Below, in pieces: positions 36,646 through 62,064 of a DNA stretch of 64,000 nt. Both the position numbers and the translations under genes were made by a program. The DNA is from Neptunicoccus cionae (GTDB taxonomy: Bacteria > Pseudomonadota > Alphaproteobacteria > Rhodobacterales > Rhodobacteraceae). The notes beneath the pieces were generated by a model. That model was not told the origin of the DNA, did not search any database, and saw nothing but the letters and a program-made list of their open reading frames with translations. The DNA lies in assembly GCF_002860325.1 (NCBI RefSeq), contig NZ_PKOJ01000003.1:248001-312000 (forward strand). Direction: 5' to 3'. Each line of letters begins with the position of its first letter. Within the stretch, counting starts at the first letter, position 1.

Positions 36646-36665
36646 GGTCGGGCTGAAGCCCGACC
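36646..36665. repeat. REP-like palindrome
   Basis: GGTCGGGCT-GA-AGCCCGACC, a 9-bp perfect hairpin lying between ettA and the stop codon of the REP-associated transposase. Its 14-base core CGGGCTGAAGCCCG recurs in reverse complement within the transposase gene. It matches the general form of REP units mobilised by RAYT transposases and may also act as a stabilising or terminating hairpin for ettA mRNA. Confidence 0.65.
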
Positions 36666-37183
36666 TACGCATTATCGCGGTGATACGACGAATGGGGCCA
36701 GTCCTTCGGGTGCGCCACAAATCCGTGCTTTACCGGATTGTTCCAGCAATATTGTAAATGGTTACGGTAATCCCGTTCATCACGAATGTGATGTTCCCAA
36801 AACCGCCGCTGCCAGATACCGACCTCCCGCTTTTCAAGCCGTAGACCGGGCTTCAGCCCGGCAAACCGCCCCCGCGACACAACCGGCAAATCCATTGGCG
36901 GCACATAGCCTGCCTTGCGAACCCCCATAACGAACCGCGCCTTGATCGCACCGATCCGTCGTGAATACTCCGCATCCCCCTCCGGCAGCGTCAGCACACA
37001 GTGGAAATGATCCGGCAGCACGACAAAAGCATTGATGACAAAGGGGCGCGCCGCCTGTGTACGCGCCACGGCACCCCGCAGAACATCCACATAGCGTAGC
37101 AGCAGATCATCGCCGCGACGGGCGAGCACTACGGTAATGAACACGGTCGCACCACAGATTTTCGGTCTTCGATAATTCACCAT
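36665..37183 (-). CDS. REP-associated tyrosine transposase (RAYT)
   Basis: 172 residues from the ATG at 37183. IS200/IS605-like Y1 transposase domain: VVLPDHFHCVLTLPEGDAEYSRRIGAIKARF contains the HUH (HFH) metal motif, and WQRRFWEHHIRDERDYRNHLQYCWNNPVKHGFV is the conserved C-terminal helix with the catalytic Tyr among RDYRNH. RAYTs are single-copy domesticated transposases that move or maintain REP palindromes. One REP-like hairpin sits at its stop codon and another copy of the core lies inside the gene (36846-36861). Confidence 0.88.
   Translation of the reverse strand: MVNYRRPKICGATVFITVVLARRGDDLLLRYVDVLRGAVARTQAARPFVINAFVVLPDHFHCVLTLPEGDAEYSRRIGAIKARFVMGVRKAGYVPPMDLPVVSRGRFAGLKPGLRLEKREVGIWQRRFWEHHIRDERDYRNHLQYCWNNPVKHGFVAHPKDWPHSSYHRDNA
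36846..36861. repeat. REP core inside the RAYT gene
   Basis: CCGGGCTTCAGCCCGG, a 7-bp perfect hairpin with a TC loop. It contains the reverse complement of the 14-base REP core found at 36649-36662. It encodes the LKPGL segment of the RAYT protein. Confidence 0.55.
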
Positions 37184-37230
37184 CCAGTGACAAAAACGCA
37201 AAATAGTTAACACCCCCTCAATCCCACTTA

Positions 37231-37258
37231 TTTCAAACCTAAAATATTTTTGCTTGAA
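37231..37258. promoter_or_regulatory. candidate MarR operator / promoter of anthranilate cluster
   Basis: AT-rich near-palindrome: TTCAA, ACCT, the perfect AAAATATTTT, TGC, TTGAA. It lies 70 bp upstream of the first gene of the aryl-CoA cluster in an otherwise GC-rich region. MarR-type regulators of aromatic-CoA pathways (for example BadR, HcaR, CouR) bind AT-rich palindromes of similar size, and a MarR gene is in the operon. The position is also compatible with the promoter. Confidence 0.45.
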
Positions 37259-37327
37259 CGAAATCGCGACTCACCCTAGCCTTTCTTTATCCAGCCCTTT
37301 GGTGCTGGCCCTCAGAGAGGACAATAG

Positions 37328-39622
37328 ATGCGTATAGCTGTTTTGGGTGGTGGACCTGCCGGTCTCTATTTTGCAATCTCCTTGAAACTCCGCCAGCCGG
37401 ACGCCGAGGTGGTTCTGATGGAGCGCAACAAGCCGGATGACACATTCGGCTGGGGCGTAGTTCTGTCGGATGAAACGCTCGACAATCTGCATCGCAACGA
37501 TCCTCAATCCGCCGCCGAGATCCGCAAACATTTCGCCTACTGGGACGATATTGCCGTGCACCATCTGGGGCAAAAAATGCTGTCTACCGGTCACGGTTTT
37601 TGCGGCATCGGGCGGCAACGGCTGCTGTTGATCCTTCAGGAACGGGCCCGTGCGCTTGGCGTTGACATGCGCTTTGAAACAGAGGTGAAATCCGCCGCAG
37701 AATACCAGTCCGAATATGATGTGGTGGTGGCCGCTGACGGGTTGAATTCCAAAACGCGGATGGAGTTTGCCGACACGTTCAAGCCGGATATCGACCTGCG
37801 CAGCTGCCAGTTTGTCTGGCTTGGCACCCACCAGAAATTCGACGACGCTTTTACCTTTATTTTTGAAAACACCGATAAGGGCTGGGTCTGGGCCCATGCC
37901 TATCAATTCAACGACGACACCGCGACTTTTATCGTTGAATGTTCGCAAGAGACGTTCGACGCCTATGGTTTTGCCGATCTGAGCCAGGCCGAAAGCATCA
38001 AAATCTGTGAAGACATATTCAAGGATTATCTGGGTGGCCACGCCCTGATGACCAACGCCAACCACATTCGCGGGTCTGCGTGGATACGCTTTCCCCGTGT
38101 GCTCTGCGAAAACTGGAGCCATGAAAATGTCGTGCTGCTCGGCGATGCCTCGGCCACGGCGCATTTTTCCATCGGGTCCGGCACCAAACTGGCACTGGAA
38201 AGCGCGATAGAGCTGGCGGAATACATCACCGGAGAAGCCGATCTCAACGCGGCTTTTGACAAGTATCAGGACCAGCGCCGACTGGAAGTGCTGCGCCTGC
38301 AATCCGCCGCCCGAAACTCGGTCGAATGGTTTGAGGATGTGGAACGCTACCTGCATCTTGACCCTGTGCAGTTGAACTATTCCCTGCTGACCCGTTCCCA
38401 GCGGATCAGCCACGAAAACCTGCGAGAGCGGGATCCGGCGTGGCTTGCCTCCGCCGAGGCGTGGTTTCAGAAACAGGCAGGCGGCGCAGAAACCACCCCG
38501 CCCCGCGCCCCGATGTTTGCGCCCTTCCAACTGCGCGATATGCAGCTGAAAAACCGCATCGTCGTGTCTCCGATGGCGCAGTATAAGGCGGTGGAGGGCT
38601 GCCCGACAGACTGGCACCTGATCCATTACGGGGAACGGGCCAAGGGCGGCGCCGGACTGGTTTATACGGAAATGACCTGTGTCTCGGCTGAGGGTCGGAT
38701 TACGCCGGGCTGTCCGGGGCTTTACGCGCCGGAGCATCAGGCGGCATGGCAGCGGTTGAATGACTTCATCCATGGCGAAACCGATGCGAAGACCTGCTGC
38801 CAGATCGGCCATTCGGGGCGCAAGGGTTCGACCCGTGTAGGCTGGGAAGGCATGGATCAGCCGCTTGAAACCGGCAACTGGCCGATCCTGTCAGCATCCG
38901 CCATTGCATGGTCCGACGGCAATGCGACCCCCGTGGCCATGACCCGTGCGGATATGGATATGGTGCGGGACCAGTTTGTTGCAGCGGCAGAAATGGCGCA
39001 GGCTGCGGGGTTTGACATGATCGAACTTCACGCCGCCCACGGGTATCTGATCTCGTCCTTTATCTCGCCCCTGTCGAACATCCGTTCGGATGAATATGGC
39101 GGGTCTCTGGAAAACCGGATGCGCTACCCGCTGGAGGTTTTCACCGCGATGCGGGCGGTCTGGCCTGCGCAAAAGCCCATGTCGGTGCGGATTTCGGCAA
39201 ACGACTGGGCGGGGGATGACGGCGTCACCCCTGAAGAGGCGGTGCTGATCGCGCAGATGTTCGAAAATGCGGGTGCCGATATCATCGACGTCTCTGCGGG
39301 CCAAACCTCGACAGAGGCACAGCCGGTCTATGGCCGTATGTTCCAAACCCCGTTTTCCGATCGCATCCGCAACGAAGCCGGTATCAAAACCATGGCTGTC
39401 GGCAATATCTACGAGCCGGATCACGTCAATTCCATCCTGATGGCGGGGCGGGCCGATCTGGTCTGTCTGGCGCGGCCCCATCTGGCCGATCCCTACTGGA
39501 CGCTTCATGCCGCCACACAGATTGGCGACAGGCAGGAAAACTGGCCCAATCCCTATGACGCAGGGCGGGACCAGCACTGGCGTCTGGCGGACCGTCAGGC
39601 AGAAATGGTGGGGAAGGTATGA
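37328..39622 (+). CDS. bifunctional 2-aminobenzoyl-CoA monooxygenase/reductase
   Basis: 764 residues in two parts. Residues 1-~385 form a flavoprotein aromatic hydroxylase ([16 protein letters not shown] motif; [35 protein letters not shown]). Residues ~396-764 form an old-yellow-enzyme-type NADH:flavin oxidoreductase ([54 protein letters not shown]). This fusion is known as 2-aminobenzoyl-CoA monooxygenase/reductase of Azoarcus evansii; databases also label it bifunctional salicylyl-CoA 5-hydroxylase/oxidoreductase. It hydroxylates the CoA-bound ring with O2 and then reduces it, giving a non-aromatic 2-amino-5-oxo-cyclohexene carboxyl-CoA. First gene of a long overlapping operon. Confidence 0.88.
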
Positions 39623-40356
39623 CGCCGCAACATGTGGTCATATCCGGCGGTGGCACCGGCGTCGGCGCAGAAATCGCGCAGGCTTTTGCCCGCGAAGGTG
39701 CAAAAGTCACGATTCTGGGACGCAGCGAAGCCCCCCTGAAGGCACAATCCCTGCCCTATCAGATTTGCGATGTGACAGACCCTGCTTCGGTGGAACAGGC
39801 CATTGACGCTGCCCGCGCAGAAAACGGCCCCGTGACGGTTGCCATCGCAAATGCGGGCGCAGCCCTTAGCAAGCCTTTCGCAAAAATGACCGGCGCCGAT
39901 TTACACGCCATGACCGATGTCAATCTGGCTGGTGTGTTCCATCTGTGGCAGGCGGTTCTGCCGGATATGAAAGCCGCAGGCGAAGGGCGGATGATCGCCA
40001 TTGCCTCCACTGCGGGGCTGAAAGGGTACCCTTATGTGGCAGGTTACTGCGCGGCGAAACATGCCGTGGTCGGGCTGACCCGTGCACTTTCGCTGGAGCT
40101 GGCGGAGACAGGGATTACTGTCAATGCGATCTGCCCCGGTTTTGTGGAAACGCCGCTTCTGGACCGTTCCATTGACAACATCATGGAAAAAACCGGAATG
40201 CCCCGCGAGCAGGCCGTGAAATCCTTGCAGAAAAGCAATCCGCAGCGCCGCTTTATCCAGACGGATGAGGTGGCGAGCACGGCGCTCTGGCTGTGCTCGG
40301 AAGGGGCGCGATCGGTAAACGGCCATGCGCTCAGCCTGTCAGGGGGCGAGATATGA
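39619..40356 (+). CDS. short-chain dehydrogenase/reductase
   Basis: 245 residues; its ATG overlaps the previous stop (ATGA). Rossmann motif [27 protein letters not shown], catalytic [10 protein letters not shown] (YxxxK) with the upstream Ser in [10 protein letters not shown], and the NAGAAL segment. FabG-like 3-oxoacyl-CoA or hydroxyacyl-CoA dehydrogenase in size and motifs. In this operon it probably reduces or oxidises the ring keto/hydroxy group of an alicyclic CoA intermediate. Confidence 0.87.
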
Positions 40357-40829
40357 GCGAGCACGCTGCTACTTTGCCGGAAGACTCCGCCTCCAAAGCG
40401 CGGTTACGGCTCTGGCTCCGCTTCCTGAAGGCGAGCCGTTCGATAGAGGCCCAGATCAGGGATAACCTGCGGCGGGAGTTCGCCTCTACCCTGCCCCGCT
40501 TTGATGTGATGGCCGCCCTGTCGCGCTATTCCGACGGGCTGAAGATGAGCCAGCTTTCCGAGGTTTTGCGGGTCTCTAACGGCAATGTCACCGGCATTGT
40601 AGACCGGCTGGTGGAAGACGGGTTTCTGGTGCGGGTTGCCGTACCAAACGACCGCCGCGCCTGGCAGGTCCGCCTGACCGAACGGGGCGAAAAGGAATTT
40701 GCAGCGCAAGCCGCGGCTCATGAAAGCTGGATCAACGAGATGCTTGGCGAATTTGGCGAAAAAGACGCCGCCAATATCGCGATCCGGCTGGAACAACTTG
40801 AAACAAGCCTTCGGGAGAGGAAACAATGA
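40353..40829 (+). CDS. MarR-family transcriptional regulator
   Basis: 158 residues from the ATG at 40353, overlapping the SDR stop by 4 bp. Winged-helix core: [62 protein letters not shown], with the usual D-R-R wing. Embedded in the catabolic operon, it is most likely its own regulator, with an aryl-CoA as effector, as for other MarR proteins of aromatic-CoA pathways. A matching AT-rich palindrome is upstream of the operon. Confidence 0.88.
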
Positions 40830-41632
40830 CCATGCGCACCGATGTGAAACATTTTCTGTGCAAGATCGAGGACGGCATCGCCACAGTCGCGCTGGACCGG
40901 CCCGAACGCAAGAACCCGCTGACCTTTGACAGCTATGCCGAACTGCGGGACTGGTTCCGTGATCTGGTTTATGCGGATGACGTGAACGCGGTTGTATTTG
41001 CCTCTAACGGCGGCAACTTTTCTTCGGGTGGCGATGTGCATGACATCATTGGCCCGCTGACGAAGATGAGCATGAAGGAACTGCTGGCCTTTACCCGCAT
41101 GACCGGCGATCTGGTCAAGGCGATTGTCAATTGCGGCAAGCCCGTCATTGCTGCGATTGACGGGGTTTGCGTAGGGGCTGGCGCAATCATCGCGATGGCC
41201 TCTGACCTGCGGATCGCCACACCGGAAGCCAAATGCGCCTTTCTGTTCACCCGTGTCGGGCTGGCGGGCTGCGATATGGGCGCCTGCGCGATCCTGCCCC
41301 GCATCATCGGTCAGGGCCGCGCGGCGGAACTGCTTTACACAGGCCGCTCGATGAATGCCGAAGAAGGCGCGAATTGGGGGTTCTACAATTCCGTAGTTGC
41401 TGCGGACGAGTTGGACACAGCCGCGCAGAACTTGGCTGCCCGCATCGCGGCGGGGCCGAATTTTGGGAATATGATGACCAAGACCATGTTGGCGCAGGAA
41501 TGGTCCATGTCCATCGAACAAGCGATTGAGGCCGAAGCACAGGCACAAGCCATTTGCATGCAGACCGCCGACTTCGAGCGGGCCTTCAACGCCTTTGTCG
41601 CCAAGGAAAAACCCGTGTTCGAGGGCAACTGA
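40826..41632 (+). CDS. atypical enoyl-CoA hydratase/isomerase (crotonase)
   Basis: 268 residues; ATG overlaps the MarR stop. Crotonase fold: oxyanion-hole segment [10 protein letters not shown] and [43 protein letters not shown]. Both catalytic Glu positions of classic hydratases are missing (Ile-Ile in GAGAIIAM, Arg in FTRVG), while an Asp appears in GCDMGA. Such variants may hydrolyse ring C-C bonds or handle branched substrates. In this operon it could open the alicyclic 2-oxo-carboxyl-CoA ring, as BadI-type crotonases do; that is inference. Confidence 0.82.
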
Positions 41633-42783
41633 TGGCAGACCGCACCTTCCTGAACTGGCCGTTCTTTGAAGACAGCCACCGCAAACTGGCGGATGATCTG
41701 GACATTTGGGCGGCAGAACATCTGGCCGCAATCGACCATTCGGACACGGACAACGCCTGCCGGTCCATTGTCGCCGCCCTTGGCAAGGCGGGCTGGCTGA
41801 CCCATTCGGCGGTTGATCCGCAAACAGGCGCGCCACTGGACGTGCGCACATTGTGCCTGATCCGCGAAACACTGGCCCGCCACGACGGGCTGGCGGATTT
41901 TGCCTTTGCGATGCAGGGTCTTGGAACGGGGGCAATTTCCCTGTTCGGATCGGACGCGCAGAAATCCGAATGGCTGAGCAAAACCCGCAAGGGCGAGGCG
42001 ATTTCTGCCTTTGCGCTGACCGAACCGCAATCCGGTTCCGATGTGGCCAGTTCCAGCATGACAGCGACATTGGACGGCGACGATTATATCCTCAATGGCG
42101 AAAAGACTTGGATCTCAAACGGCGGGATCGCGGATGTATACACCGTCTTTGCCCGCACTGGCGATGCGCCCGGGGCCAAGGGACTGTCCGCTTTCATCGT
42201 GCCCGCTGAAACCGCCGGTTTCGAGGTGGCAGAACGGCTGGAAACCATCGCGCCCCATCCGCTGGCTACATTGCGGTTTACCGATTGCCGGATTCCCAAA
42301 TCCGCAATGATCGGCAGCAGCGGCGAGGGCTTCAAAATTGCCATGTCGGTGCTGGATGTGTTCCGCTCTACCGTGGCGGCGGCGGCGCTCGGCTTTGCCC
42401 GCCGTGCGCTGGATGAATCCCTTGCCCGCGTCACCAGCCGCCATGTTCAGGGTGCCCCCCTATTTGATCTGCAACTGGTGCAGGGGCATATTTCAGACAT
42501 GGCCGTTAATGTGGATGCAAGCGCCCTGCTGATCTATCGCGCGGCATGGACCAAGGACAGCGGCGCACCGCGCATCACCCGCGAGGCCGCAATGGCCAAA
42601 CTGTTCGCTACAGATCAGGCGCAGAAAGTCATCGATGCTGCGGTACAGCTTCACGGGGGGGACGGGGTGCGCTCCGGTGAAATGGTCGAAAGACTCTACC
42701 GCGAAATACGGGCGCTCCGGATCTACGAAGGCGCCTCCGATGTTCAAAAAGTCATCATTGCCCGCCAGACACTGGGCGCATAG
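41632..42783 (+). CDS. acyl-CoA dehydrogenase
   Basis: 383 residues from the ATG at 41632, which overlaps the crotonase stop (TGATG). Family signatures: [18 protein letters not shown] (FAD/substrate loop), [12 protein letters not shown], and the catalytic Glu in [20 protein letters not shown] near the C-terminus. It introduces an alpha-beta double bond in a CoA thioester, passing electrons to electron-transferring flavoprotein. In this operon the likely substrate is a dicarboxyl or alicyclic CoA formed after ring reduction or cleavage. Confidence 0.9.
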
Positions 42784-42797
42784 GAGAGACAGGAAAC

Positions 42798-44420
42798 ATG
42801 CTAGGGCCAAGCGCACATACCGATCGTTTCACACGGGACAATCTACCCCCGAAAAACACTTGGCCCGACTTCCTGCTGGACGGGTTTGATTATCCCGAAT
42901 ACCTCAACGCTGCGGTCGAACTGACGGATGCCATGGTTGCGAAAGGCTTTGGAGACCACACGGCCCTGATCGGCAACGGGCGGCGGCGCACGTATAAGGA
43001 ACTGACCGACTGGACCAACCGCCTTGCCCATGTGCTGGTGGAAGATTTTGGCGTTGAACCGGGCAACCGCGTGCTGATCCGCTCTGCCAATAACCCCGCG
43101 ATGGTAGCCTGCTGGCTGGCCGCGACCAAGGCGGGGGCCGTGGTGGTCAATACCATGCCGATGCTGCGCAGCGGGGAACTGGCCAAGATTGTGGACAAGG
43201 CAGAGATCACCCATGCGCTCTGTGACACGCGACTGATGGATGAAATGGTGGCCTGCGCCAAGGATAACGCCACGCTGACCCATGTTATCGGCTTTGACGG
43301 CACATCAAACCACGATGCCGAACTGGACCGGCTGGCGCTGGAAAAATCGGTGCAGTTTGAAGCAGTAAAGACGGGGCGGGACGATGTGGCGCTGCTTGGG
43401 TTTACATCGGGCACCACAGGCGCCCCCAAGGCGACGATGCATTTTCACCGCGACCTGCTGATCATCGCGGACGGTTATGCAAAGGAAGTCCTGAACGTCA
43501 CGCCCGAGGATGTGTTTATCGGTTCCCCGCCACTGGCCTTTACCTTCGGGCTGGGCGGGCTGGCGATCTTTCCTTTGCGTTTCGGGGCGGCGGCAACCCT
43601 GCTGGAAACAGCCTCACCGCCCAATATGATCGAGATCATCGAGAAATACCGCGCCACCGTTTGTTTCACCGCGCCAACGGCCTACCGCGCCATGCTGGCC
43701 GCGATGGACGAAGGGGCCGACCTGTCGAGCCTTCGTGCCGCTGTATCAGCAGGGGAAACCCTGCCCGCACCGGTATATCAGGCGTGGATGGAGAAAACCG
43801 GAAAGCCCATGCTAGACGGGATCGGCGCAACAGAGATGCTGCATATCTTTGTTACCAACCGCTTTGACGATCACGCCCCCGCCTGCACCGGCAAACCCGT
43901 CACCGGCTATGAGGCCAAGATCATCGACGACACCGGCGCCGAAGTGCCGCGTGGCACCGTGGGTCGACTGGCGGTGCGCGGCCCGACGGGCTGCCGCTAT
44001 CTCGCGGACGAGCGGCAGGCGAAATACGTGCAGGACGGCTGGAACATTACCGGCGATGCCTTTTCCATGGATGAAAACGGCGCATTACACTTCGCCGCAC
44101 GTAACGACGACATGATTGTCTCCTCCGGCTATAATATCGCCGGCCCCGAAGTAGAAGCCGCGCTTCTTGCCCATGAACTGGTCGCGGAATGTGCTGTGAT
44201 CGGAGCACCGGACGAAGAACGCGGTTCCATCGTAGAGGCCCATGTTGTCCTGCAGTCCGGCACGCCGGACGACGTCACCGCCAAACTGTTGCAGGATTTC
44301 GTCAAAGCGCAGATCGCGCCGTACAAATATCCCAGACGGATCATTTTCACAGAAGGTTTGCCAAAAACCCAGACAGGGAAAATTCAACGTTTCCTTTTGA
44401 AGCAGGATGTGGATTCATAA
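42798..44420 (+). CDS. 2-aminobenzoate/benzoate-CoA ligase-like enzyme
   Basis: 540 residues; GGAGAGACAGGAAAC precedes the ATG. ANL-superfamily motifs: TSGTTGAPKATMHFHRD (P-loop), DGIGATEMLHIF, WNITGDAFSMDENG and the C-terminal lysine in PKTQTGKIQRFLL. The HFHRD and GATEMLHIF pattern is that of benzoate-CoA ligase relatives. Together with the monooxygenase/reductase the expected substrate is anthranilate (2-aminobenzoate), activated to the CoA thioester with ATP. It would be the first cytoplasmic step of the pathway. Confidence 0.87.
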   Translation: MLGPSAHTDRFTRDNLPPKNTWPDFLLDGFDYPEYLNAAVELTDAMVAKGFGDHTALIGNGRRRTYKELTDWTNRLAHVLVEDFGVEPGNRVLIRSANNPAMVACWLAATKAGAVVVNTMPMLRSGELAKIVDKAEITHALCDTRLMDEMVACAKDNATLTHVIGFDGTSNHDAELDRLALEKSVQFEAVKTGRDDVALLGFTSGTTGAPKATMHFHRDLLIIADGYAKEVLNVTPEDVFIGSPPLAFTFGLGGLAIFPLRFGAAATLLETASPPNMIEIIEKYRATVCFTAPTAYRAMLAAMDEGADLSSLRAAVSAGETLPAPVYQAWMEKTGKPMLDGIGATEMLHIFVTNRFDDHAPACTGKPVTGYEAKIIDDTGAEVPRGTVGRLAVRGPTGCRYLADERQAKYVQDGWNITGDAFSMDENGALHFAARNDDMIVSSGYNIAGPEVEAALLAHELVAECAVIGAPDEERGSIVEAHVVLQSGTPDDVTAKLLQDFVKAQIAPYKYPRRIIFTEGLPKTQTGKIQRFLLKQDVDS

Positions 44421-44465
44421 CCCATCAACAACCAACAGAAACGATAACAACAAGGGAGAACTATA

Positions 44466-45602
44466 ATGAAAATCAAAACACTGGCACTCGCAACCGCGCT
44501 GGCCGCACTCGGCACCGCCGGCTTGGCCGAACCCCTGAAGGTGGGCATGATCACCACACTGTCCGGCGGCGGCGCAGGGCTTGGCATTGATGTGCGCGAC
44601 GGCTTTATGCTGGCTGTAAAACAGTCCGGCAATACCGACATCGAAGTGGTGATCGAGGACGACCAGCGCAAACCGGACATCGCGGTTCAACTGGCTGACA
44701 AGATGATCCAGTCGGAAAAAGTAGATGTTATGACCGGCATCATCTGGTCCAACCTCGCGATGGCTGTGATCCCGAGCGCCACAGCGCAGGGTAAAATCTA
44801 CCTCTCACCGAACGCGGGACCATCCGCGCTGGCCGGTAAGGGTTGCCACCAAAACTATTTCAACGTGGCATGGCAAAACGACAACCTGCACGAAGCCGCA
44901 GGCGCACACGCGACATCTGAAGGGTACAAAAACACGTTTATCCTTGCCCCGAACTACCCCGCAGGTGTTGACGCGCTGACCGGCTTCAAAAGCCAGTACA
45001 AAGGCGAACTGTCCGGCGAGCTGTTGACCAAACTCGGCCAGACGGATTACGCCTCTGAAATCGCACAGATCCGCGCCTCCGGTGCAGATAGCGTGTTCTT
45101 CTTCCTGCCGGGCGGCATGGGGATTTCCTTCCTCAAGCAATATGCCGACAGTGGTATCGACCTGCCTGTCGTCGGTCCTGCCTTCAGCTTTGATCAGGGT
45201 ATCCTGCAAGCCGTGGGCGATGCGGCTCTTGGTGTGCGGAACACCTCCCAGTGGAGCAAGGACATCGACAACGCCACAAACAAGGCCTTCGTCGAAAGCT
45301 TTCAAGCCGAATACGGTCGCTTGCCGTCACTCTACGCCAGTCAGGGGTTTGACACAGCCAACCTGCTGCTGAGCGCGATGGGCAAAGCGAGCATTTCGGA
45401 TGCAGATGCCTTCCGCGCTGCGCTGAAAGAAGCGGATTTCTCCAGCACTCGCGGGGATTTCAAATTCGGCAACAACAACCACCCGATTCAGGACATCTAT
45501 GTGCGCGAAGTCATCAAGGAAGGCGATGTATACACCAACAAAATCGTTGGTGTCGCCCTTGAAGATCACGGCGATGTCTACGCCGCTGAATGTAAGATGT
45601 AA
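44466..45602 (+). CDS. ABC transporter substrate-binding protein (LivK-type)
   Basis: 378 residues; AAGGGAGAACTATA precedes the ATG. Signal peptide (MKIKTLALATALAALGTAGLA), then the type I periplasmic binding fold with PLKVGMITTLSGGGAGLGIDVRDGF and the later SLYASQGFDTANLL hinge. It belongs to the branched-chain-amino-acid-type group that also binds aromatic acids. Placement in the anthranilate-type operon suggests an aromatic carboxylate ligand. A strong hairpin lies directly after its stop. Confidence 0.9.
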   Translation: MKIKTLALATALAALGTAGLAEPLKVGMITTLSGGGAGLGIDVRDGFMLAVKQSGNTDIEVVIEDDQRKPDIAVQLADKMIQSEKVDVMTGIIWSNLAMAVIPSATAQGKIYLSPNAGPSALAGKGCHQNYFNVAWQNDNLHEAAGAHATSEGYKNTFILAPNYPAGVDALTGFKSQYKGELSGELLTKLGQTDYASEIAQIRASGADSVFFFLPGGMGISFLKQYADSGIDLPVVGPAFSFDQGILQAVGDAALGVRNTSQWSKDIDNATNKAFVESFQAEYGRLPSLYASQGFDTANLLLSAMGKASISDADAFRAALKEADFSSTRGDFKFGNNNHPIQDIYVREVIKEGDVYTNKIVGVALEDHGDVYAAECKM

Positions 45603-45610
45603 GCAAATCC

Positions 45611-45638
45611 GGCGGGCGCGGCCAATGCTGCGCCCGCC
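45611..45638 (+). other. intercistronic hairpin after binding-protein gene
   Basis: Perfect 9-bp GC stem GGCGGGCGC / GCGCCCGCC with a 10-nt loop, 8 nt after the stop of the binding-protein gene, followed only by CTTTCG. Without a real T-run it probably stabilises the upstream mRNA or reduces readthrough to the permeases. Confidence 0.6.
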
Positions 45639-45659
45639 CTTTCGCGCAAGGCGTTTTCC

Positions 45660-46580
45660 ATGTCCCTTCTTCTCTTGGCTGAACAGGTTCTGAACGGATT
45701 GCAGTTCGGAATCATGCTGTTCCTTATGGCTGCCGGCCTGACGCTCGTGTTCGGGGTAATGGGGTTGATCAACCTCGCCCACGGCTCTTTGTTCATGATC
45801 GGTGCTTTTGCTGCCGCCGCCGTCGCCGGTGCCACCGGATCTTTCCTGCTGGCCCTGATCGCCGCGCTGGCCGCTGCTGCTGCGGCCGGTGCGCTTGTGG
45901 AAATCCTTGTGATCCGCAGGCTCTACGCCCGCGAGCATCTGGATCAGGTTCTCGCCACTTTTGCGCTGATCCTGATCTTTTCGGAAAGCACGCGCTGGCT
46001 GTTCGGATCGTTCCCGCTGTTCCTGAACATACCCGAGGCGCTCTCCGGTCCTGTCACCCTGCCCGGTGGTATCCAGTATTCGCTGTACCGTCTGACCCTG
46101 ATCGCCATCGGGCTGGTCGTGGCCTTCGGCCTGTTCCTGCTGATTTCGCGCACGCGACTTGGCATCCAGATCCGCGCCGGTGAAAGCGACCGCGAGATGA
46201 TTGCGGCCCTCGGTGTCGATATTTCCAAACTCTACACTATCGTCTTTGCCCTTGGCGCCGCCCTTGCCGGACTAGCCGGAGCACTGGTCGGCGCGATCCA
46301 GTCGGTGCAGGTGGGCATGGGCGAGCCGGTTCTGATCCTTGCCTTCGTCGTCATCGTGATCGGCGGCATCGGTTCGATCAAGGGCGCACTGGTCGGGGCG
46401 ATCCTTGTGGGGCTGACCGATACGCTGGGCGGGCTGCTGCTGCCCCTGTTCTTCAGCCTGTTCATGGACAATGCCTCTGCCACATCCACCGGATCGGCGC
46501 TGGCCTCCATGTCCATTTACATCCTGATGGCCATCGTTCTGGTGGTAAAACCGTCCGGACTCTACGGAGCCAGAGCATGA
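45660..46580 (+). CDS. ABC transporter permease (LivH-type)
   Basis: 306 residues with about eight membrane helices. LivH features: LNGLQFGIMLFLMAAGLTLVFGVMGLINLAHG at the N-terminus and the cytoplasmic EAA-like loop near IQIRAGESDREMIAALGVDI. It forms the membrane channel with the next gene. Its stop overlaps the next ATG, and the binding protein is 57 bp upstream beyond a hairpin. Confidence 0.92.
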   Translation: MSLLLLAEQVLNGLQFGIMLFLMAAGLTLVFGVMGLINLAHGSLFMIGAFAAAAVAGATGSFLLALIAALAAAAAAGALVEILVIRRLYAREHLDQVLATFALILIFSESTRWLFGSFPLFLNIPEALSGPVTLPGGIQYSLYRLTLIAIGLVVAFGLFLLISRTRLGIQIRAGESDREMIAALGVDISKLYTIVFALGAALAGLAGALVGAIQSVQVGMGEPVLILAFVVIVIGGIGSIKGALVGAILVGLTDTLGGLLLPLFFSLFMDNASATSTGSALASMSIYILMAIVLVVKPSGLYGARA

Positions 46581-47560
46581 CCCGCGAAACACTGATAAAT
46601 TCTGCGCTGGCGCTGGCGCTGCTGCTGGTGCCGCTCTTGGCTTATGCCATGGACGAACCTTTCATCATCACGCTGGCCACCAAAGTTGCGATCCTTGCGC
46701 TGGCCGGTGTGGGGCTGAACATCGCCCTTGGCCTTGGCGGGCTGGTCAGCCTTGGTCATGCCGCCTTCTTCGGGATCGGCGGCTATGCGATGGGCATCCT
46801 TGCCAGCCACGCCCAGAGCTATACCGCAATCACAGACTGGCCAGTCCTGATCGAAGGCACGAAATCCATGCCGGTGATATGGCTGGTGGCTGTTGTTGCA
46901 TCCGGTATCACGGCACTGCTGATCGGTGCGCTGAGCCTGCGTACCTCCGGCGTTTATTTCATTATGATCACCCTCGCTTTCGGGCAGATGCTCTATTACT
47001 TCGCCATAAGCTGGGCCGCCTACGGGGGCGAAGACGGCTTGTCTATATACGTGCGAAACAGTTTTCCGGGATTGAACACGCTCGACCCGATCCAGTTCTT
47101 CGCCATTACTTTTGTGCTGCTACTGGCCGCCCTGCTGTTCTCGGCACGACTGGCCCGCTCGCCTTTCGGCCTTGCCCTGAATGCCGCGCGGCAATCTCCG
47201 CAAAGGGTGGAAACCATCGGCCTGTCCCCCTACCGCCTGCGCCTTCTGGCCTTTGTGATTTCGGGCATGATTACCGGACTGGCCGGCGCGCTGTTTGCCG
47301 ATTTAAACCGCTTCGTCAGCCCCACCATGTTCAGCTGGCAAACCAGCGGCGAGATCATGGTGTTCATCATCCTTGGCGGCACGGCGCGTTTGTTCGGCCC
47401 TGTCGCGGGTGCAGCGCTGTTTATCATCCTTGAACACATCCTCGGCGGACTGAGCGAGTTCTGGCACATCTACCTCGGCTTGTTACTGCTGCTGGTGGTG
47501 CTCTTTGCCAAGGGCGGTGTCATCGGCACTCTTGCCGGACGGGAGAAAGCCCATGACTGA
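46577..47560 (+). CDS. ABC transporter permease (LivM-type)
   Basis: 327 residues, about nine to ten membrane helices. LivM features: ALAGVGLNIALGLGGLVSLGHAAFFGIGGYAMG and the later NAARQSPQRVETIGLSPYRLRLLAFVISG coupling loop. Coupled by a 4-bp overlap to the LivH-type gene and by an 8-bp overlap to the ATPase gene. Confidence 0.92.
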   Translation: MTRETLINSALALALLLVPLLAYAMDEPFIITLATKVAILALAGVGLNIALGLGGLVSLGHAAFFGIGGYAMGILASHAQSYTAITDWPVLIEGTKSMPVIWLVAVVASGITALLIGALSLRTSGVYFIMITLAFGQMLYYFAISWAAYGGEDGLSIYVRNSFPGLNTLDPIQFFAITFVLLLAALLFSARLARSPFGLALNAARQSPQRVETIGLSPYRLRLLAFVISGMITGLAGALFADLNRFVSPTMFSWQTSGEIMVFIILGGTARLFGPVAGAALFIILEHILGGLSEFWHIYLGLLLLLVVLFAKGGVIGTLAGREKAHD

Positions 47561-48311
47561 CCTGCAAACCCCGATCCTTGAAACCCGTAATATCTGTAAA
47601 TCCTTTGATGCCCTCAAGGCCAGTCAGGACATTTCGCTTGATCTGCGTGCAGGGGAAATCCACGCGTTAATCGGGCCGAACGGGGCAGGCAAATCCACCC
47701 TGATCGCCCAGATCGCAGGCGGGTTGAAACCTGACAGCGGATCAGTCCATCTTAACGGGCGGGATGTTACCACCCTGCCAACAGCCAAACGGGCACGGCT
47801 GGGACTTGGACGAACCTTTCAGGTCTCGGCCCTTGCGATGGAAGACACGGTTCTGCAAAACGCTGTGCTGGGTGCGCTTGGTGCACAAGGCCGCCCTTTC
47901 CACCTGTTCCAATCCGCCTTGGGCAATGCCAGCTTGCGACAAGTGGCAGAACAGGCGCTGGAACGGGTCGGCCTGCAAGACCACGCCCGTACCCGCACAG
48001 CAGAACTGTCCCACGGGCAACGCCGCCAGTTGGAGGTCGCCGTAGCGCTGACCCTTCAACCAAAGGCTTTCGTGATGGACGAACCGATGGCGGGGCTTGG
48101 CGCGAGCGGTTCCAAAGCCCTGACGGGCTTTCTTGACAGCCTGCGTGAACAGGCTCCGATCCTGATGGTAGAACACGATATGGACGCAGTATTTGCGCTG
48201 GCCGACCGGATCAGCGTACTGGTCTACGGCCAGATTATCGCCACCGGAAGTGTCGCTGAAATCCGGGCCCATCCCGAAGTCCGCCGCGCCTATCTGGGGG
48301 AAGACGCATGA
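47553..48311 (+). CDS. ABC transporter ATP-binding protein (LivG-type)
   Basis: 252 residues from the ATG at 47553, inside the preceding permease gene. Walker A GPNGAGKST, signature ELSHGQRRQLEVAVAL (SHGQ, as in LivG) and Walker B region AFVMDEPMAGL, then LMVEHDMDAVF. It energises uptake together with the following LivF-type ATPase. Confidence 0.92.
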   Translation: MTDLQTPILETRNICKSFDALKASQDISLDLRAGEIHALIGPNGAGKSTLIAQIAGGLKPDSGSVHLNGRDVTTLPTAKRARLGLGRTFQVSALAMEDTVLQNAVLGALGAQGRPFHLFQSALGNASLRQVAEQALERVGLQDHARTRTAELSHGQRRQLEVAVALTLQPKAFVMDEPMAGLGASGSKALTGFLDSLREQAPILMVEHDMDAVFALADRISVLVYGQIIATGSVAEIRAHPEVRRAYLGEDA

Positions 48312-48997
48312 GCCTGCTTTCAATCCAAAACGTTGCAGCCTCCTACGGCGCCACCCAAGCCCTGTTCGATGTCTCGCTCGAGATTGCCGAGGGCGAAGTT
48401 CTCGCCCTGATGGGGCGCAACGGCATGGGCAAATCCACCACCGTTAAAACCATCTGCCGCCTGTTGCCTGCAAGCGCGGGGCAGATCAGCTTTGACAGTA
48501 CAGACCTGACCCGCCTGCCCGCTTTCAAGGCTGCACGGCTCGGGCTAGGTCTTGTACCCGAAGGGCGCCGCTGCTTTCCAAACCTCAGCGTTGAGGAAAA
48601 CCTGACGGCCGCAGCCCGTACCGGCCACTGGGATTTATCGCGTGTGGCCACCCTGTTTCCCCGCCTTGAAGAACGCCGGGACCAGTCCGCGGCATCGCTG
48701 TCGGGCGGTGAACAACAGATGCTCGCAATCGGACGCGCCCTGATGACCAACCCGCGCCTGCTAATTCTGGACGAAGCCACCGAAGGGCTCGCCCCGCTGG
48801 TCAGGCAGGAAATCTGGAACGCGATCGCCACGCTGAAACAGGACACAGGCCTGTCCATTCTGGTGGTAGACAAATCGCTGAAAGAACTGTCTCAGGTGGC
48901 AGACCGCGCCACGATCCTCGAACGGGGCAGAACCGTCTGGACAGGAGCCATGGCAGAGCTTGACGAAGACGTAACACAGCAATTCCTGGGCGTCTGA
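48308..48997 (+). CDS. ABC transporter ATP-binding protein (LivF-type)
   Basis: 229 residues; ATG overlaps the previous stop. Walker A GRNGMGKST (typical of LivF), GLVPEGRRCFPNLSVEENL, signature LSGGEQQMLAIGRALM, Walker B LLILDEATEGLAPLV. Completes a five-part importer in the catabolic operon. Confidence 0.92.
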   Translation: MSLLSIQNVAASYGATQALFDVSLEIAEGEVLALMGRNGMGKSTTVKTICRLLPASAGQISFDSTDLTRLPAFKAARLGLGLVPEGRRCFPNLSVEENLTAAARTGHWDLSRVATLFPRLEERRDQSAASLSGGEQQMLAIGRALMTNPRLLILDEATEGLAPLVRQEIWNAIATLKQDTGLSILVVDKSLKELSQVADRATILERGRTVWTGAMAELDEDVTQQFLGV

Positions 48998-49025
48998 ACA
49001 CGCCCCCTCTGAAGGGAGAGAGACA

Positions 49026-49427
49026 ATGACACAGACAAATATCCAGCCTGACGGTTGGGCCCCGGCCAAAGGCTATGCCAACGGCATTCTCGGGGATGAC
49101 GGTACACTTTATATCGGCGGCCAGATTGGCTGGACTGCCGAACAGAAGTTTGAAACCCATGATTTCATCGGGCAGATGGAGCAGGCGCTGCGCAACATTG
49201 TCGATGTGGTTGAAGCCGCAGGTGGAAAGGCCACAGACATCACCCGCCTGACATGGTTCATTCTGGACAAGACCGAATATCTGGCCCGCCAGTCCGAAGT
49301 TGGCGCGGTGTACCGCAAGGTGCTGGGCCGTCATTTTCCCGCCATGTCCATGCTGGTCGTAGCTGGCCTGATCGAAGACGAAGCGCTGCTGGAAATCGAG
49401 GCCACCGCCTATCTTGGCCCCCGTTAA
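49026..49427 (+). CDS. RidA (YjgF/YER057c/UK114) enamine/imine deaminase
   Basis: 133 residues; GAAGGGAGAGAGACA precedes the ATG. RidA-like features: YANGILGDDGTLYIGGQIGW, the QMEQALRNIVDVVEAAGGKATDITRLTWFI core, and the C-terminal LIEDEALLEIEATAYLG. RidA proteins speed hydrolysis of reactive enamines and imines to ketones plus ammonia. It closes the operon after the importer. The monooxygenase/reductase product is an enamine-type beta-amino enoyl-CoA, so a dedicated deaminase would fit the pathway; that link is inference. It is a RidA-subfamily member rather than certainly RidA itself. Confidence 0.87.
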   Translation: MTQTNIQPDGWAPAKGYANGILGDDGTLYIGGQIGWTAEQKFETHDFIGQMEQALRNIVDVVEAAGGKATDITRLTWFILDKTEYLARQSEVGAVYRKVLGRHFPAMSMLVVAGLIEDEALLEIEATAYLGPR

Positions 49428-50536: not shown

Positions 50537-51274
50537 TCAGATCGCCAGATACTCGTGGCGCAATTGTTCGTTGTCGAGAACCTCTTTGGCGGTGCCGTCA
50601 AACACCACCTGCCCCGTATCAAGGATCACCGCCCGATCCGCGAGGTTCAGCGCGGCGACCGCGTTTTGCTCTACGATGATCGTCGTCATCCCCTGTTCGC
50701 GGATGTGGTGCAGGGTCTTTTCGATCTCCTGTACGATCACCGGCGCCAGACCTTCATAGGGTTCGTCCAGCAGCAGGAGCTTGATATCCCGCGCCAGTGC
50801 GCGCCCGATGGCCAGCATCTGCTGTTCGCCCCCTGACAGGGTTGTACCCTCCTGCTTGCGCCGCTCCCCGAGCCGGGGGAAAAGGTCGTAAATGCGGTCA
50901 ATCGACCAGCCTATCGGCTTCTCGATCTGGGCCAGCTGGATGTTTTCTTCCACCGTCAGCCCCTGAATGATCCGCCGGTCCTCGGGAACAAGTCCGATAC
51001 CCGCCTGCGAGGCCTGCCATGCCTTCATCTGGTGCAGGGGCTGGCGGTCCAGCCAGACCTCACCGTGGGTCAGCATGGGATCATCCAGCCGCGCCAGCGC
51101 CCGCAGGGTCGAGGTTTTCCCCGCCCCGTTACGCCCCAGCAGCGCAAGAATTTCGCCTTCGTGGATATTCAGCGACACGCCCTGCACGATATAGCTCTCG
51201 CCGTAATAGGCGTGAATATCATAGGCCGAGAAATAGGCCGGCGCGGTGGCTGCGTGATTTGCGTTCTTTTCCAT
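50537..51274 (-). CDS. ABC transporter ATP-binding protein (LivF-type), second system
   Basis: 245 residues from the ATG at 51274; a GTG four codons earlier has poorer spacing to AAGGGG. Walker A GRNGAGKTST, GLVPEDRRIIQGLTVEENI, signature LSGGEQQMLAIGRAL, Walker B LLLLDEPYEGLAPVI. N-terminal FSAYDIHAYYGESYIVQGVSL is typical of the LivF partner. Last gene of the second importer operon, before a terminator. Confidence 0.92.
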   Translation of the reverse strand: MEKNANHAATAPAYFSAYDIHAYYGESYIVQGVSLNIHEGEILALLGRNGAGKTSTLRALARLDDPMLTHGEVWLDRQPLHQMKAWQASQAGIGLVPEDRRIIQGLTVEENIQLAQIEKPIGWSIDRIYDLFPRLGERRKQEGTTLSGGEQQMLAIGRALARDIKLLLLDEPYEGLAPVIVQEIEKTLHHIREQGMTTIIVEQNAVAALNLADRAVILDTGQVVFDGTAKEVLDNEQLRHEYLAI

Positions 51275-51289
51275 AATGTCATGCACCCC

Positions 51290-52045
51290 TTAATGCGCCG
51301 TACCAAGATAGGCTTCCTGAACTTTCGGATGGCCTTTGATGTTTTCAGGCAGGTCTTCGACGATCACCGTCCCCTGTGCGAGCACCGAAATCTTCTGCGC
51401 CAGCGAAAATACCACATGCATATCATGCTCGATAACACCCATCGTGATATGCCGCTTGTCCTGAATTTGGGCCAGCAGTTCGATCGTGTTGTTGGTATCC
51501 GCCCGCGCCATCCCTGCTGTAGGTTCATCAAGCAGTAGCAGCTTGGGGTCTTGCGCCAGACACATGGCCATTTCCAACCGCCGCTTGTCCCCGCGCGACA
51601 TGGACGAAGCGATCATGTCACGCTTGTCGATCATGTTCACGTCGATCAACATCTGTTCGGCCTTTTCGCGTATGTCGGTCTGTCCCTGCACGCGGGACAG
51701 TGCGTTCAGTTCAAATGCGCCGTCCCGTTTGGCGAAACAAGGGATCATCACGTTTTCAAACACGCTGAGGTCGGAGAAGATTTCAGGTGTCTGGAAGACG
51801 CGGCTGACTCCGATCTGGTTGATCTCATGCGGCTTCTTTCCCAACAACGAGTGACCATCAAAGGTCACCGTGCCCGTGTCCGGAACCAGCTTGCCGACAA
51901 AACAGTTCAACAATGTCGATTTGCCTGCTCCGTTGGGGCCGATGATCGCGTGGATCGTGCCTTCCTCGATGTTAAGATTGACGTTCTGCAACGCTTTCAA
52001 ACCGCCAAAGGATTTGTTCACGTTCTGGATTTCAAGAATTCCCAT
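51290..52045 (-). CDS. ABC transporter ATP-binding protein (LivG-type), second system
   Basis: 251 residues; AAGGAGGGCTGGATTT precedes the ATG. Walker A GPNGAGKST, signature-like SSMSRGDKRRLEMAMCL (SRGD, an unusual but recurrent form in this subgroup), Walker B LLLLDEPTAGMAR, then VIEHDMHVVF. Works with the adjacent LivF-type subunit. Confidence 0.92.
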   Translation of the reverse strand: MGILEIQNVNKSFGGLKALQNVNLNIEEGTIHAIIGPNGAGKSTLLNCFVGKLVPDTGTVTFDGHSLLGKKPHEINQIGVSRVFQTPEIFSDLSVFENVMIPCFAKRDGAFELNALSRVQGQTDIREKAEQMLIDVNMIDKRDMIASSMSRGDKRRLEMAMCLAQDPKLLLLDEPTAGMARADTNNTIELLAQIQDKRHITMGVIEHDMHVVFSLAQKISVLAQGTVIVEDLPENIKGHPKVQEAYLGTAH

Positions 52046-52059
52046 AAATCCAGCCCTCC

Positions 52060-53247
52060 TTATTCGCCAGCCGGGGCGTATTTGCCCTCGGTGTCTTTTT
52101 TATTCTTGTCGCCACTGAACCGGTCACGAATGCGGGTTGCACCTTCCATAAGGCCACCGGGCAGGAAGATCACAATCAGCATGAACAACAGACCCAATGT
52201 CAGGTGCCAGCCGGAACCGACGAAGTGCTCGATCACCCAGATTAGACCGTTCTCGATCCCGTCCGGCAGGAAGCCGAACCAGCCGTGCAACACACTTTCA
52301 TTAATCTTGGAGAAGATATTCTCGAAGTATTTGATGAAACCTGCACCCAGCAGCGGACCAAGCAGCGTACCTGCACCGCCAAGAATGGTCATCAGAACCA
52401 CCTCACCCGAAGCTGTCCATTGCATCCGTTCGGCCCCGGCCAGCGGGTCCATGGAGGCCATCAGTCCACCGGCCAACCCAGCATACATGCCCGAAATCAC
52501 AAAAGCGGCGAGCGTATAGGGGCGCGAATTCAGACCTGTGTAGTTCAGACGTGTCTGGTTGGTCTTGATCGCCCGCAACATTAACCCGAAGGGAGAGCGG
52601 AAAATCCGCATGGACAGATAGAAGGCCACCAGCATCAGCACCGCGCAGAAATAGTAGCCGACGTTAAAGGAAAACGACCACGCACCGATATCCAGATCAA
52701 AGGTCGAACGCATCTCCAACCCGAAGAAATGGGTCGCATCCGGCCCGTTGCCTTTCAGCCATTGCGGATCGTCGTTATAGACCTGCAAGCCGGTTTCCCC
52801 GTTTGTCAGCGGTGTCAGCACCGAATAGGCCATGGCAAAGGACATCTGGGCAAAGGCCAGTGTGAGGATCGAAAAGTAGATGCCGGAGCGGCGCAGGGAG
52901 ATAAACCCGATGATCACGGAAAACAGCCCTGCAACAATGACCGACAGGATGATCGCCGGCACGATGTTATAGCTGAGAAGTTTGAACATCCAAACCGCCG
53001 CATAGGAGCCTGCCCCCAGGAAGGCCGCATGGCCGAAGGACAGGTATCCGGTCAGGCCGAACAGGATGTTGAAACCGATGGCAAAGATGCCGAAGATCAC
53101 AAACCGCTGCATCAGGTCGGGATAGCCCGCGTTGAACTGCGCCATCGCACTGTCTGCGGGAAACGGGTTCATGATGAACGGGGCGAGTGCCGTGACACAG
53201 ATCACGAAGATGAAAAGGCCGGTGTCTTTTTTGTTCAGTCCAAGCAT
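52060..53247 (-). CDS. ABC transporter permease (LivM-type), second system
   Basis: 395 residues, about ten helices. LivM features: [33 protein letters not shown] and the [34 protein letters not shown] loop. A ~50-residue insert ([22 protein letters not shown]) makes it longer than the first system's permease, as in urea/amide-type members. Charged C-terminal tail. GAGGAATAATCCC precedes the ATG. Confidence 0.92.
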
Positions 53248-53251
53248 GGGA

Positions 53252-54298
53252 TTATTCCTCCATCACGCCTCTGCGTCCCATCAGACCACGCGGGCGGGTC
53301 AACAGAACAATAATTGCAACTAGGTAGATGATGATCTGGTCAATGGACGGCAGATAGATGGCTTCAAAGAAGCTTTTGACCTCGTTCATTGCGGCGAAGC
53401 TTTCGAGAATACCCAGAAGGAAGCCTGCCAGTACCGCTCCGGGAAGGCTGCCCATGCCGCCGACCACGACGACCACAAAGCTCAGCACCAGAAAATCCAT
53501 ACCCATGTGATAGTTCGGGCTGTTAATCGGCGTGTACATCACACCTGCCAGACCGGCCACAGCCGCCGCGATCCCGAATGTCAGGGTAAAACGGCGGTCG
53601 ATGTTAATGCCAAGCAGACCTACGGTTTCGCGATCTGCCATACCGGCCCGCACCACCATGCCGAATGTGGTGAATTGCAGGAAGGCGAAGACCGCGCCGA
53701 TGACAAGGGCCGAGAAGGCGAAATAAACCAGACGCCACAGCGGATAAATCACTGCATTCGGGTCAAAGCCAAGCAACACGCCGAAATCGAAGGAACCGCG
53801 CAGCGCATCAGGTGCGGGTGTCGGGATCGGGTTTGCGCCGTAGTAGTGTTTCACGATTTCCTGAATCACAATCGCCAGACCAAAGGTCACAAGGATCTGA
53901 TCCGCATGCGGACGCTTGTAGAAATGTTTGATCAACCCGCGTTCCATAATGTAGCCAACCGCCAGCATCACCGGAATCGCGAACAGAATGGCCAGCGGGA
54001 CGGACCAGTTGATGATCAACTGGCCGGTGGCCTCTCCGAACAGGGATTCCACATAAGGTGTTTTCACCTCCATCGGGTTGCCCAGAAAATCCTTCTTTTC
54101 CGGATCAATGCTGACAGAGCTGATGGTGAGGATTTTTTGCAAGGTAACGGCGCAGAATGCACCGATCATGAACAAGGCACCGTGCGCGAAGTTCACCACG
54201 CCCAGAGTGCCGAAAATCAACGTCAGGCCAAGGGCGATCAACGCATAGGCGGAGCCTTTGTCCAGTCCGTTCAGAATTTGCAGGAGGATTGCGTCCAT
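53252..54298 (-). CDS. ABC transporter permease (LivH-type), second system
   Basis: 348 residues, about eight to nine helices. LivH features: [35 protein letters not shown] and [30 protein letters not shown]. It carries a periplasmic insert ([23 protein letters not shown]) near residue 60. A terminator-like hairpin lies upstream, between it and the binding-protein gene. Confidence 0.92.
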
Positions 54299-54338
54299 AG
54301 TCCCGCCCTTCTTCTATATCGAGGGATGTATTGTAAAA

Positions 54339-54365
54339 GACCACGGCAATTGGCTTGCCGTGGTC
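54339..54365 (-). terminator. attenuator-like hairpin between binding protein and permease genes
   Basis: Perfect 11-bp stem GACCACGGCAA / TTGCCGTGGTC with a 5-nt loop, followed on the minus strand by TTTTAC. It lies 21 nt after the binding-protein stop and before the LivH-type gene. Partial termination here would leave the binding protein more abundant than the membrane parts. Confidence 0.75.
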
Positions 54366-54386
54366 CTGTTCAGCATCAGGCTACAC

Positions 54387-55745: not shown

Positions 55746-55981
55746 AGATTTCCTCCCAATGAACTCAATTTTTTGACCGACCCGTGCATCCTCCCATGGA
55801 CACGCGCCCGGACACGAAGTCAAATAATTGACATTGGCATCTTCCCGCCGATCCGTTAAAAACACAATAAACAGTTGCTTTGGTTGAATTTTTTTGTAAA
55901 GTTTTTCTCGACGCAATGCAGCATTTTGTAAATTTAGTGACCGATCTTCCCGCAACGTAAAGCAATCAAAGGAAAAAAATC

Positions 55982-61636: not shown

Positions 61637-62064
61637 AATGACTCTGTCGAATAAGTTCGGTCCGCGCTGTATGGGCAGGGTTTAAGTCGAAATTGTGGCA
61701 AATGCTGCCACATTTACTCGCTCAACCCGCCAAAAAATGCGAATCACATTCTCCTTTTGCATTTTGCAATAGCCTTATGGCCTTGAGGTTTAGCGCTATT
61801 GTCCACGATTGAGAGACAAAGAAGCCCCCTCAACCCCAATGTTCCCAAAAAAGGCAAAAAATATCGAAATGTGGCGAAATTTGTTCAAAATCGGGCAAAA
61901 TTGGACGGTTTTCCTTGAGTTTTGATCCGAGTGCTGTGTAACTGAACAAGAGAATTCGCGGCGCATCAGGAGTCCATCTGTTCGGAACCGGCGCTGCTTA
62001 TAGGATATTTTCATTTTTCGCCGGAGCGATACCGGTCGAACCAGCATGATGAGTGGAGTTTGTA
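61637..62064. other. intergenic region with palindrome TGTGGCA-N5-TGCCACA
   Basis: About 430 bp, AT-richer than the flanks, no supported gene. It contains a perfect 7-bp inverted repeat TGTGGCA / TGCCACA at 61694-61712, near the start of the phosphotransferase-fold gene (58 bp upstream), and a related TGTGGCG at 61871. It must hold the divergent promoters of that gene and of the RTX/Hint gene. Confidence 0.5.

Follow-up and report, generated by a model that had tools for sequence, protein, structure and literature searches.

How an aromatic acid is taken up and degraded as its coenzyme A (CoA) thioester, and what a small protein of the Rid family contributes to this, is the question raised by an operon of twelve genes in the marine bacterium Neptunicoccus cionae. 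The operon lies on the forward strand at positions 37328-49427 of a stretch of 64,000 nucleotides, referred to here as the window (assembly GCF_002860325.1, contig NZ_PKOJ01000003.1, positions 248,001 to 312,000); the host genome comprises 4.29 Mb in 17 contigs. On balance, we lean towards the reading that this operon serves the uptake of anthranilate and its breakdown through the aerobic 2-aminobenzoyl-CoA route, with the Rid protein hydrolysing a CoA-bound enamine. Two of the operon products depart from their family names: the Rid protein is without the arginine of RidA, and the crotonase is without one of the two hydratase glutamates. Papers are cited here by PMC number.

Probable Assignment of the Operon to the 2-Aminobenzoyl-CoA Route

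The original prediction had described twelve genes on one strand in a named order, mostly overlapping, without a ring-cleaving dioxygenase. This description was borne out by the open reading frames and by Pfam and NCBIfam, which found no such dioxygenase among the twelve genes. Overlaps were observed at 7 of the 11 junctions (in order, -4, -4, -4, -1, +14, +45, +57, -4, -8, -4 and +28 bp, using the first ATG for the acyl-CoA dehydrogenase (41632) and the ligase (42798), whose listed frames began further upstream). Since the gene order recurs in relatives, the arrangement is beyond chance.

The sequence comparisons support the assignment to the aerobic 2-aminobenzoyl-CoA (anthranilate) route well. 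The first product has the fused one-chain architecture of a flavin adenine dinucleotide (FAD) monooxygenase and an old-yellow-enzyme reductase, as in that pathway, and scored 1294.5 bits on the full-length NCBIfam model PRK08255 (cut-off 1078). The name of this model, bifunctional salicylyl-CoA 5-hydroxylase/oxidoreductase, is no test of substrate. The closest named relative of the fused protein is from Neptunicoccus sediminis (97%), and its identity to the counterpart on plasmid pAL1 of Arthrobacter sp. Rue61a is 48%. The operon also holds beta-oxidation-type genes encoding a short-chain dehydrogenase/reductase (SDR), a crotonase and an acyl-CoA dehydrogenase.

Over 539 aligned columns, the ligase shares 55% identity with that of pAL1, and the pAL1 gene gave anthranilate-CoA ligase activity, measured in E. 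coli extracts (PMC3534580); the assayed locus was matched by position, as the AMP-binding gene that immediately precedes the fused gene in the record. The best PDB match of the window ligase was 4wv3, an anthranilate-CoA ligase, and its score on the benzoate-CoA ligase family model was under the cut-off (353.7 vs 375.25 bits).

The periplasmic binding protein was modelled from 24 sequences (pLDDT 87.6). In a Foldseek search, seven of the eight best chains (five entries) were ligand complexes of binding proteins, while urea and leucine binders ranked lower. Four of these chains name an aromatic acid in their titles; for 4eyg and 4f06, whose titles are incomplete, we take the ligands to be aromatic acids as well. 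The closest solved relatives thus mostly bind aromatic acids, and the ligand of the modelled protein is probably also an aromatic acid.

Genes for the supply of anthranilate from tryptophan were found in the host, which encodes kynureninase (KynU, above the curated cut-off) and tryptophan 2,3-dioxygenase (TDO), and beside the operon in several relatives. In Ruegeria pomeroyi (L116), the TDO gene is divergent from the operon, with a score of 390.2 just under the cut-off of 390.7, and in Aminobacter (L121) the KynU gene lies about 7 kb before the operon. Of 60 loci, 11 had TDO and/or KynU within the stretch that was fetched; in one further locus (L259), the core genes, KynU, TDO, importer and Rid all stand together. 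An alpha/beta hydrolase gene by the R. pomeroyi TDO was considered as a kynurenine formamidase, and this label was not used as evidence, NCBIfam placing the product in the hormone-sensitive-lipase family. Among the papers listed by the literature search, there was nothing specific on anthranilate use by Roseobacter.

The part of the original prediction that had anthranilate degraded by way of its CoA thioester is well supported, because of the homology to an assayed ligase, the likeness to aromatic-acid binders and the linkage of kynurenine-pathway genes in several relatives. That the operon degrades salicylate or another ortho-substituted benzoate, as the name of PRK08255 and the gentisate-dioxygenase-like gene beside some fused-family members might suggest, is very unlikely and was rejected on this ligase homology and kynurenine-gene linkage, on the absence of a gentisate-dioxygenase-like gene and an FAA hydrolase from the twelve operon genes, and on the lack of both Rid and crotonase in the three gentisate-type loci among 60 (L210, L212 and L213).

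A Rid Protein Without the RidA Arginine

In alignments with 6l8p and with four RidA-type PDB chains, the residue of the window Rid at the position of the RidA arginine is Met107. Methionine was observed at this position in 54 of 54 rows of a first set, window included (complete frames above a bit-score limit; 53 of 99 loci and the window gave a row), and in 43 of 44 rows of a second set. The two sets partly overlap, some genomes being the same contigs as genome-contig loci (e.g., L115 and L243). The single row that differs comes from L239, where another, distinct Rid gene at 17020 carries Asn at the arginine position and shares its locus with a Met-type Rid.

The Rid cleft lies between subunits. 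Two of its residues, Y17 and E123, are invariant in 31 rows and are by alignment the equivalents of Tyr17 and Glu120 of TdcF.

RidA proteins use their arginine to hold the carboxylate of the substrate, and this residue predicts deaminase activity; Trp is found at this position in Rid4 and Rid7 and variable residues in Rid5 and Rid6, and in 2015 the functions of these arginine-less Rid4-7 subfamilies were described as completely unknown (PMC4433059). A single tested Rid7 is named in PMC5619798. The window Rid resembles Rid4-7 in the missing arginine. Among the literature matches listed, none linked a Rid protein to the 2-aminobenzoyl-CoA pathway, most subscription journals being outside the coverage of the search.

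An ordinary RidA deaminase was rejected for the window Rid on the replacement of the arginine by methionine in both sets. The deaminase label of the original prediction does not follow from the family, because the essential arginine of RidA is missing here, and is not supported as it was stated; the part of the claim that placed Rid in the pathway stands on co-occurrence.

Co-Occurrence of the Rid and Fused Genes

A phylogenetic profile was made over 398 Pseudomonadota genomes, with thresholds of our own choice (E <= 1e-130 for the fused gene and E <= 1e-20 for Rid). A close Rid homologue was present in 69 of the 71 genomes that carry the fused gene and was absent from all 327 others. The crotonase had nearly the same profile (67 of 71 and 0 of 327), and Rid and crotonase occurred together in 67 of the 71. 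Of 70 fused-Rid pairs, 62 were within 16 kb, the closer Rid being counted in genomes with two; among the remaining eight, two were about 1 and 1.8 Mb apart, one was about 40 kb apart, and five were on different contigs.

The two genomes with the fused gene and without Rid (G354 and G407, loci L210 and L212) have the fused gene next to a gentisate-dioxygenase-like cupin and an FAA hydrolase. The same neighbours, with no Rid or crotonase in the stretch, were found beside the fused copies L213 and L118, and one genome (G283) carries one fused copy of each type. The L118 cupin scored 311.7 against a gentisate 1,2-dioxygenase cut-off of 442.1. On a tree built in quick mode from all 60 loci L191-L250, seven others and the window, these four copies fall in two places, L212 being on a long branch. 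The 60 loci cover 61 of the 74 fused-gene match rows; the other twelve besides the window's own were fetched separately.

Rid without crotonase was observed in two genomes. In G087 (L225), an FAA hydrolase and a pAL1-like cupin are present, and in G110 the fused gene is at a contig end (L257). A cupin of 150 aa turns up repeatedly in clusters of this kind, in 17 of 60 loci, and also at 17538-17990 of L116.

Proposed Mechanism

In the proposed scheme, the binding protein and ABC permease would import an aromatic acid, and anthranilate may also arise inside the cell from tryptophan, as the genes suggest. The ligase, whose homologue was assayed in the literature, would make anthraniloyl-CoA. The fused enzyme would hydroxylate this at C5 and reduce the ring to 2-amino-5-oxocyclohex-1-ene-1-carboxyl-CoA, the product reported for the Azoarcus evansii fused enzyme (PMC4539516), which is a beta-enamino thioester. 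The new step proposed here is the hydrolysis of this CoA-bound enamine by the arginine-less Rid, which would give the 2,5-dioxo thioester and ammonia. In the CoA enamine, there is an amino group that can be released and no carboxylate in free form, which would fit a Rid without the carboxylate-holding arginine. Redox adjustment, ring opening and entry into general beta-oxidation would then fall to the SDR, the acyl-CoA dehydrogenase and the non-canonical crotonase, and the MarR protein is predicted to repress the operon from 37232-37258 until a ligand releases it.

Weighing the Role of the Rid Protein

Our best reading is an arginine-less Rid dedicated to the CoA-bound enamine; that the pathway thereby has a dedicated enzyme for its deamination step we judge to be evenly balanced. 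Several points weigh against it. According to PMC8113886 (2021), no arginine-less Rid has displayed deaminase activity so far, and the R104A variant of RutC is inactive (PMC8113886, PMC4433059). The best PDB match of the window Rid, 5v4f, is likewise without the arginine and has no stated function, and the Rid of pAL1 is only 30% identical to that of the window. The kept Tyr17 and Glu123 prove little, because alanine at these positions had little effect on RidA (PMC4433059). Since the genomes share ancestry (the fused gene occurs in 46 genera), the counts of the profile are not independent trials, and since the crotonase has nearly the same profile as Rid, co-occurrence shows membership of the pathway, not chemistry. 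Hydrolysis of the CoA enamine may also be spontaneous, and the host TDO and KynU genes are unlinked to the operon, on other contigs.

The data from Arthrobacter sp. Rue61a bear on the same point. This strain grows on anthranilate and not on salicylate, and CoA esters of C7H7NO3 and C7H8O4 acids were found only in anthranilate-grown cells, the former presumably hydroxyanthraniloyl-CoA and the latter possibly cyclohexanedione-carboxyl-CoA (PMC3534580), which is the expected deamination product of the pathway. A pAL1-deficient mutant still grows on anthranilate via chromosomal paralogues (PMC3534580), so that neither the growth nor the liquid chromatography-mass spectrometry data can be assigned to the pAL1 genes. 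This lowers our confidence in the proposed scheme with enamine hydrolysis by Rid and raises that in a Rid with another role.

Such a Rid would belong to the same anthranilate pathway as a tautomerase, a chaperone or a scavenger of side products, deamination being spontaneous or due to another enzyme. We regard this as possible but doubtful. It agrees with the absence of the arginine from nearly all sequences of both sets, with the inactivity of the arginine-less Rids tested so far, and with the chemical plausibility of spontaneous enamine hydrolysis. It fits less well with the retention of Rid in nearly all genomes that carry the fused gene, at times at a great distance from it, and with G087 (L225), which has Rid, an FAA hydrolase and a pAL1-like cupin and is without crotonase; because of this genome, Rid may follow the amino substrate and not a single fate of the ring.

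If Rid does hydrolyse the CoA-bound enamine, this would be an enzymatic function for an arginine-less Rid. Because the genomic partner is a close one and its enamine product is defined, the question of function comes down to one assay, at least for this arginine-less group. As a rule for annotation, we suggest that members of the salicylyl-CoA 5-hydroxylase/oxidoreductase family accompanied by this Rid and crotonase probably act on 2-aminobenzoyl-CoA.

Comparison With Known Systems and Distribution

The 2-aminobenzoyl-CoA system of A. evansii, like the operon in the window, has an AMP-forming ligase, a fused monooxygenase/reductase and further degradation by beta-oxidation enzymes (PMC4539516). 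In a review, a 2-aminobenzoyl-CoA cluster is given as genetically verified for anthranilate degradation (PMC6221969). Besides its ligase and fused gene, pAL1 has a nearby Rid with Met at the arginine position, whereas an FAA hydrolase, a small cupin and a thioesterase replace the SDR, crotonase and dehydrogenase of the window, and its regulators are of the PaaX type instead of MarR. Ruegeria pomeroyi DSS-3 shares the core genes and Rid and differs in an extra cupin gene, the divergent TDO and the lack of an importer in the 26 kb examined. In Comamonas odontotermitis WLL, the core genes, Rid and importer are shared, while MarR is divergent and a thioesterase gene is added.

Rid-family deaminases in catabolic operons are already represented by RutC (3-aminoacrylate deaminase) and AmnE (2-aminomuconate deaminase) (PMC8113886, PMC6742747). 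Unlike the window Rid, RutC keeps the arginine (Arg104) and AmnE has a conserved cleft Arg117, presumably the arginine equivalent, and the substrates of both have a free carboxylate.

Beyond the 71 fused-positive genomes of the profile, the fused gene was found in 54 of 149 genomes drawn from the family of the window, and matches occurred in 95 of 72,556 plasmid records (E <= 1e-100). Within the genus the distribution is patchy, the gene being full-length in 8 of 33 genomes including that of the window. A homologous importer adjoins the operon in 23 of 80 genome-contig loci, and importer and Rid were both within the fetched stretch in 11 of 80, some other stretches ending before the Rid position; both also occur in Comamonas (L120) and in the loci L259 and L264. 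These numbers do not support the earlier view of an unusually self-contained version: the group is widespread, and the operon is ordinary within it.

Crotonase

Canonical enoyl-CoA hydratases have two catalytic glutamates. In an alignment with five paralogues of the same genome, the operon crotonase has Arg143 at the first position and keeps the second as Glu168; both glutamates are present in three of the five paralogues, among them the one closest to a hydratase model. Glu168 and Asp150 are invariant in 30 rows, and the protein scored 477 bits on NCBIfam PRK08258 (cut-off 330). An ordinary hydratase was rejected on the replacement by Arg143 and is unlikely; the residues suggest an isomerase or C-C hydrolase role. 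Ring opening in the manner of a beta-keto thioester, as originally predicted, would be compatible with such a non-canonical crotonase.

Candidate Operator and Feature Coordinates

A conserved pattern upstream of the fused gene makes 37232-37258 the natural candidate operator for the MarR protein. The patterns were drawn after inspection of 30 of 81 upstream regions (the window and 80 loci); the simple form matched 58 of the 81 (missing 23) and the stricter form 48, against a mean of 0 in 20 shuffling rounds for both. The window has one match (0 in 100 shuffles), which is the sole perfect match in the genome; one further place, read on both strands, has two mismatches. A palindrome scan alone gave only an imperfect palindrome at 37236-37255, inside the candidate operator, and it was the upstream comparison that revealed the conservation. 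The promoter scan found no sigma-70-like promoter in 37100-37400. The coordinates of all features are shown in Table 1.

Table 1. Operon genes and candidate operator, with positions in the window.
Feature	Coordinates	Strand	Basis
Putative MarR operator (27 bp, TTCAA...CTTGAA), starting 96 bp upstream of the first start codon	37232..37258	+	Conserved upstream pattern
Fused FAD monooxygenase and old-yellow-enzyme reductase (2-aminobenzoyl-CoA monooxygenase/reductase type), 764 aa	37328..39622	+	PRK08255, FAD_binding_3, Oxidored_FMN
SDR, 245 aa	39619..40356	+	adh_short
MarR-family regulator, 158 aa	40353..40829	+	MarR
Crotonase-fold enzyme, 268 aa	40826..41632	+	PRK08258; alignment with paralogues
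Acyl-CoA dehydrogenase, 383 aa	41632..42783	+	Acyl-CoA_dh_1/M/N
AMP-forming aryl-CoA ligase, probably anthranilate-CoA ligase, 540 aa	42798..44420	+	Homology to pAL1 ligase
Periplasmic binding protein, branched-chain-amino-acid ABC type, probably for an aromatic acid	44466..45602	+	Peripla_BP_6; Foldseek
ABC permease 1	45660..46580	+	BPD_transp_2
ABC permease 2	46577..47560	+	BPD_transp_2
ABC ATPase 1	47553..48311	+	UrtD/LivG-like, under model cut-offs
ABC ATPase 2	48308..48997	+	UrtE/LivF-like, under model cut-offs
Arginine-less Rid, Met107 at the RidA Arg105 position, proposed CoA-enamine deaminase, 133 aa	49026..49427	+	Ribonuc_L-PSP; alignment

Neighbouring Genes

A REP-associated tyrosine transposase gene lies directly upstream of the operon on the reverse strand (36665-37213; NCBIfam NF047646, 154.9 bits). 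After the operon, also on the reverse strand, a second branched-chain-type ABC cassette was observed at 50537-55955, with two ATPase frames, two permease frames and a Peripla_BP_6 protein. On the forward strand, the frame at 62053-63780 encodes RTX calcium-binding repeats together with a Hint domain.

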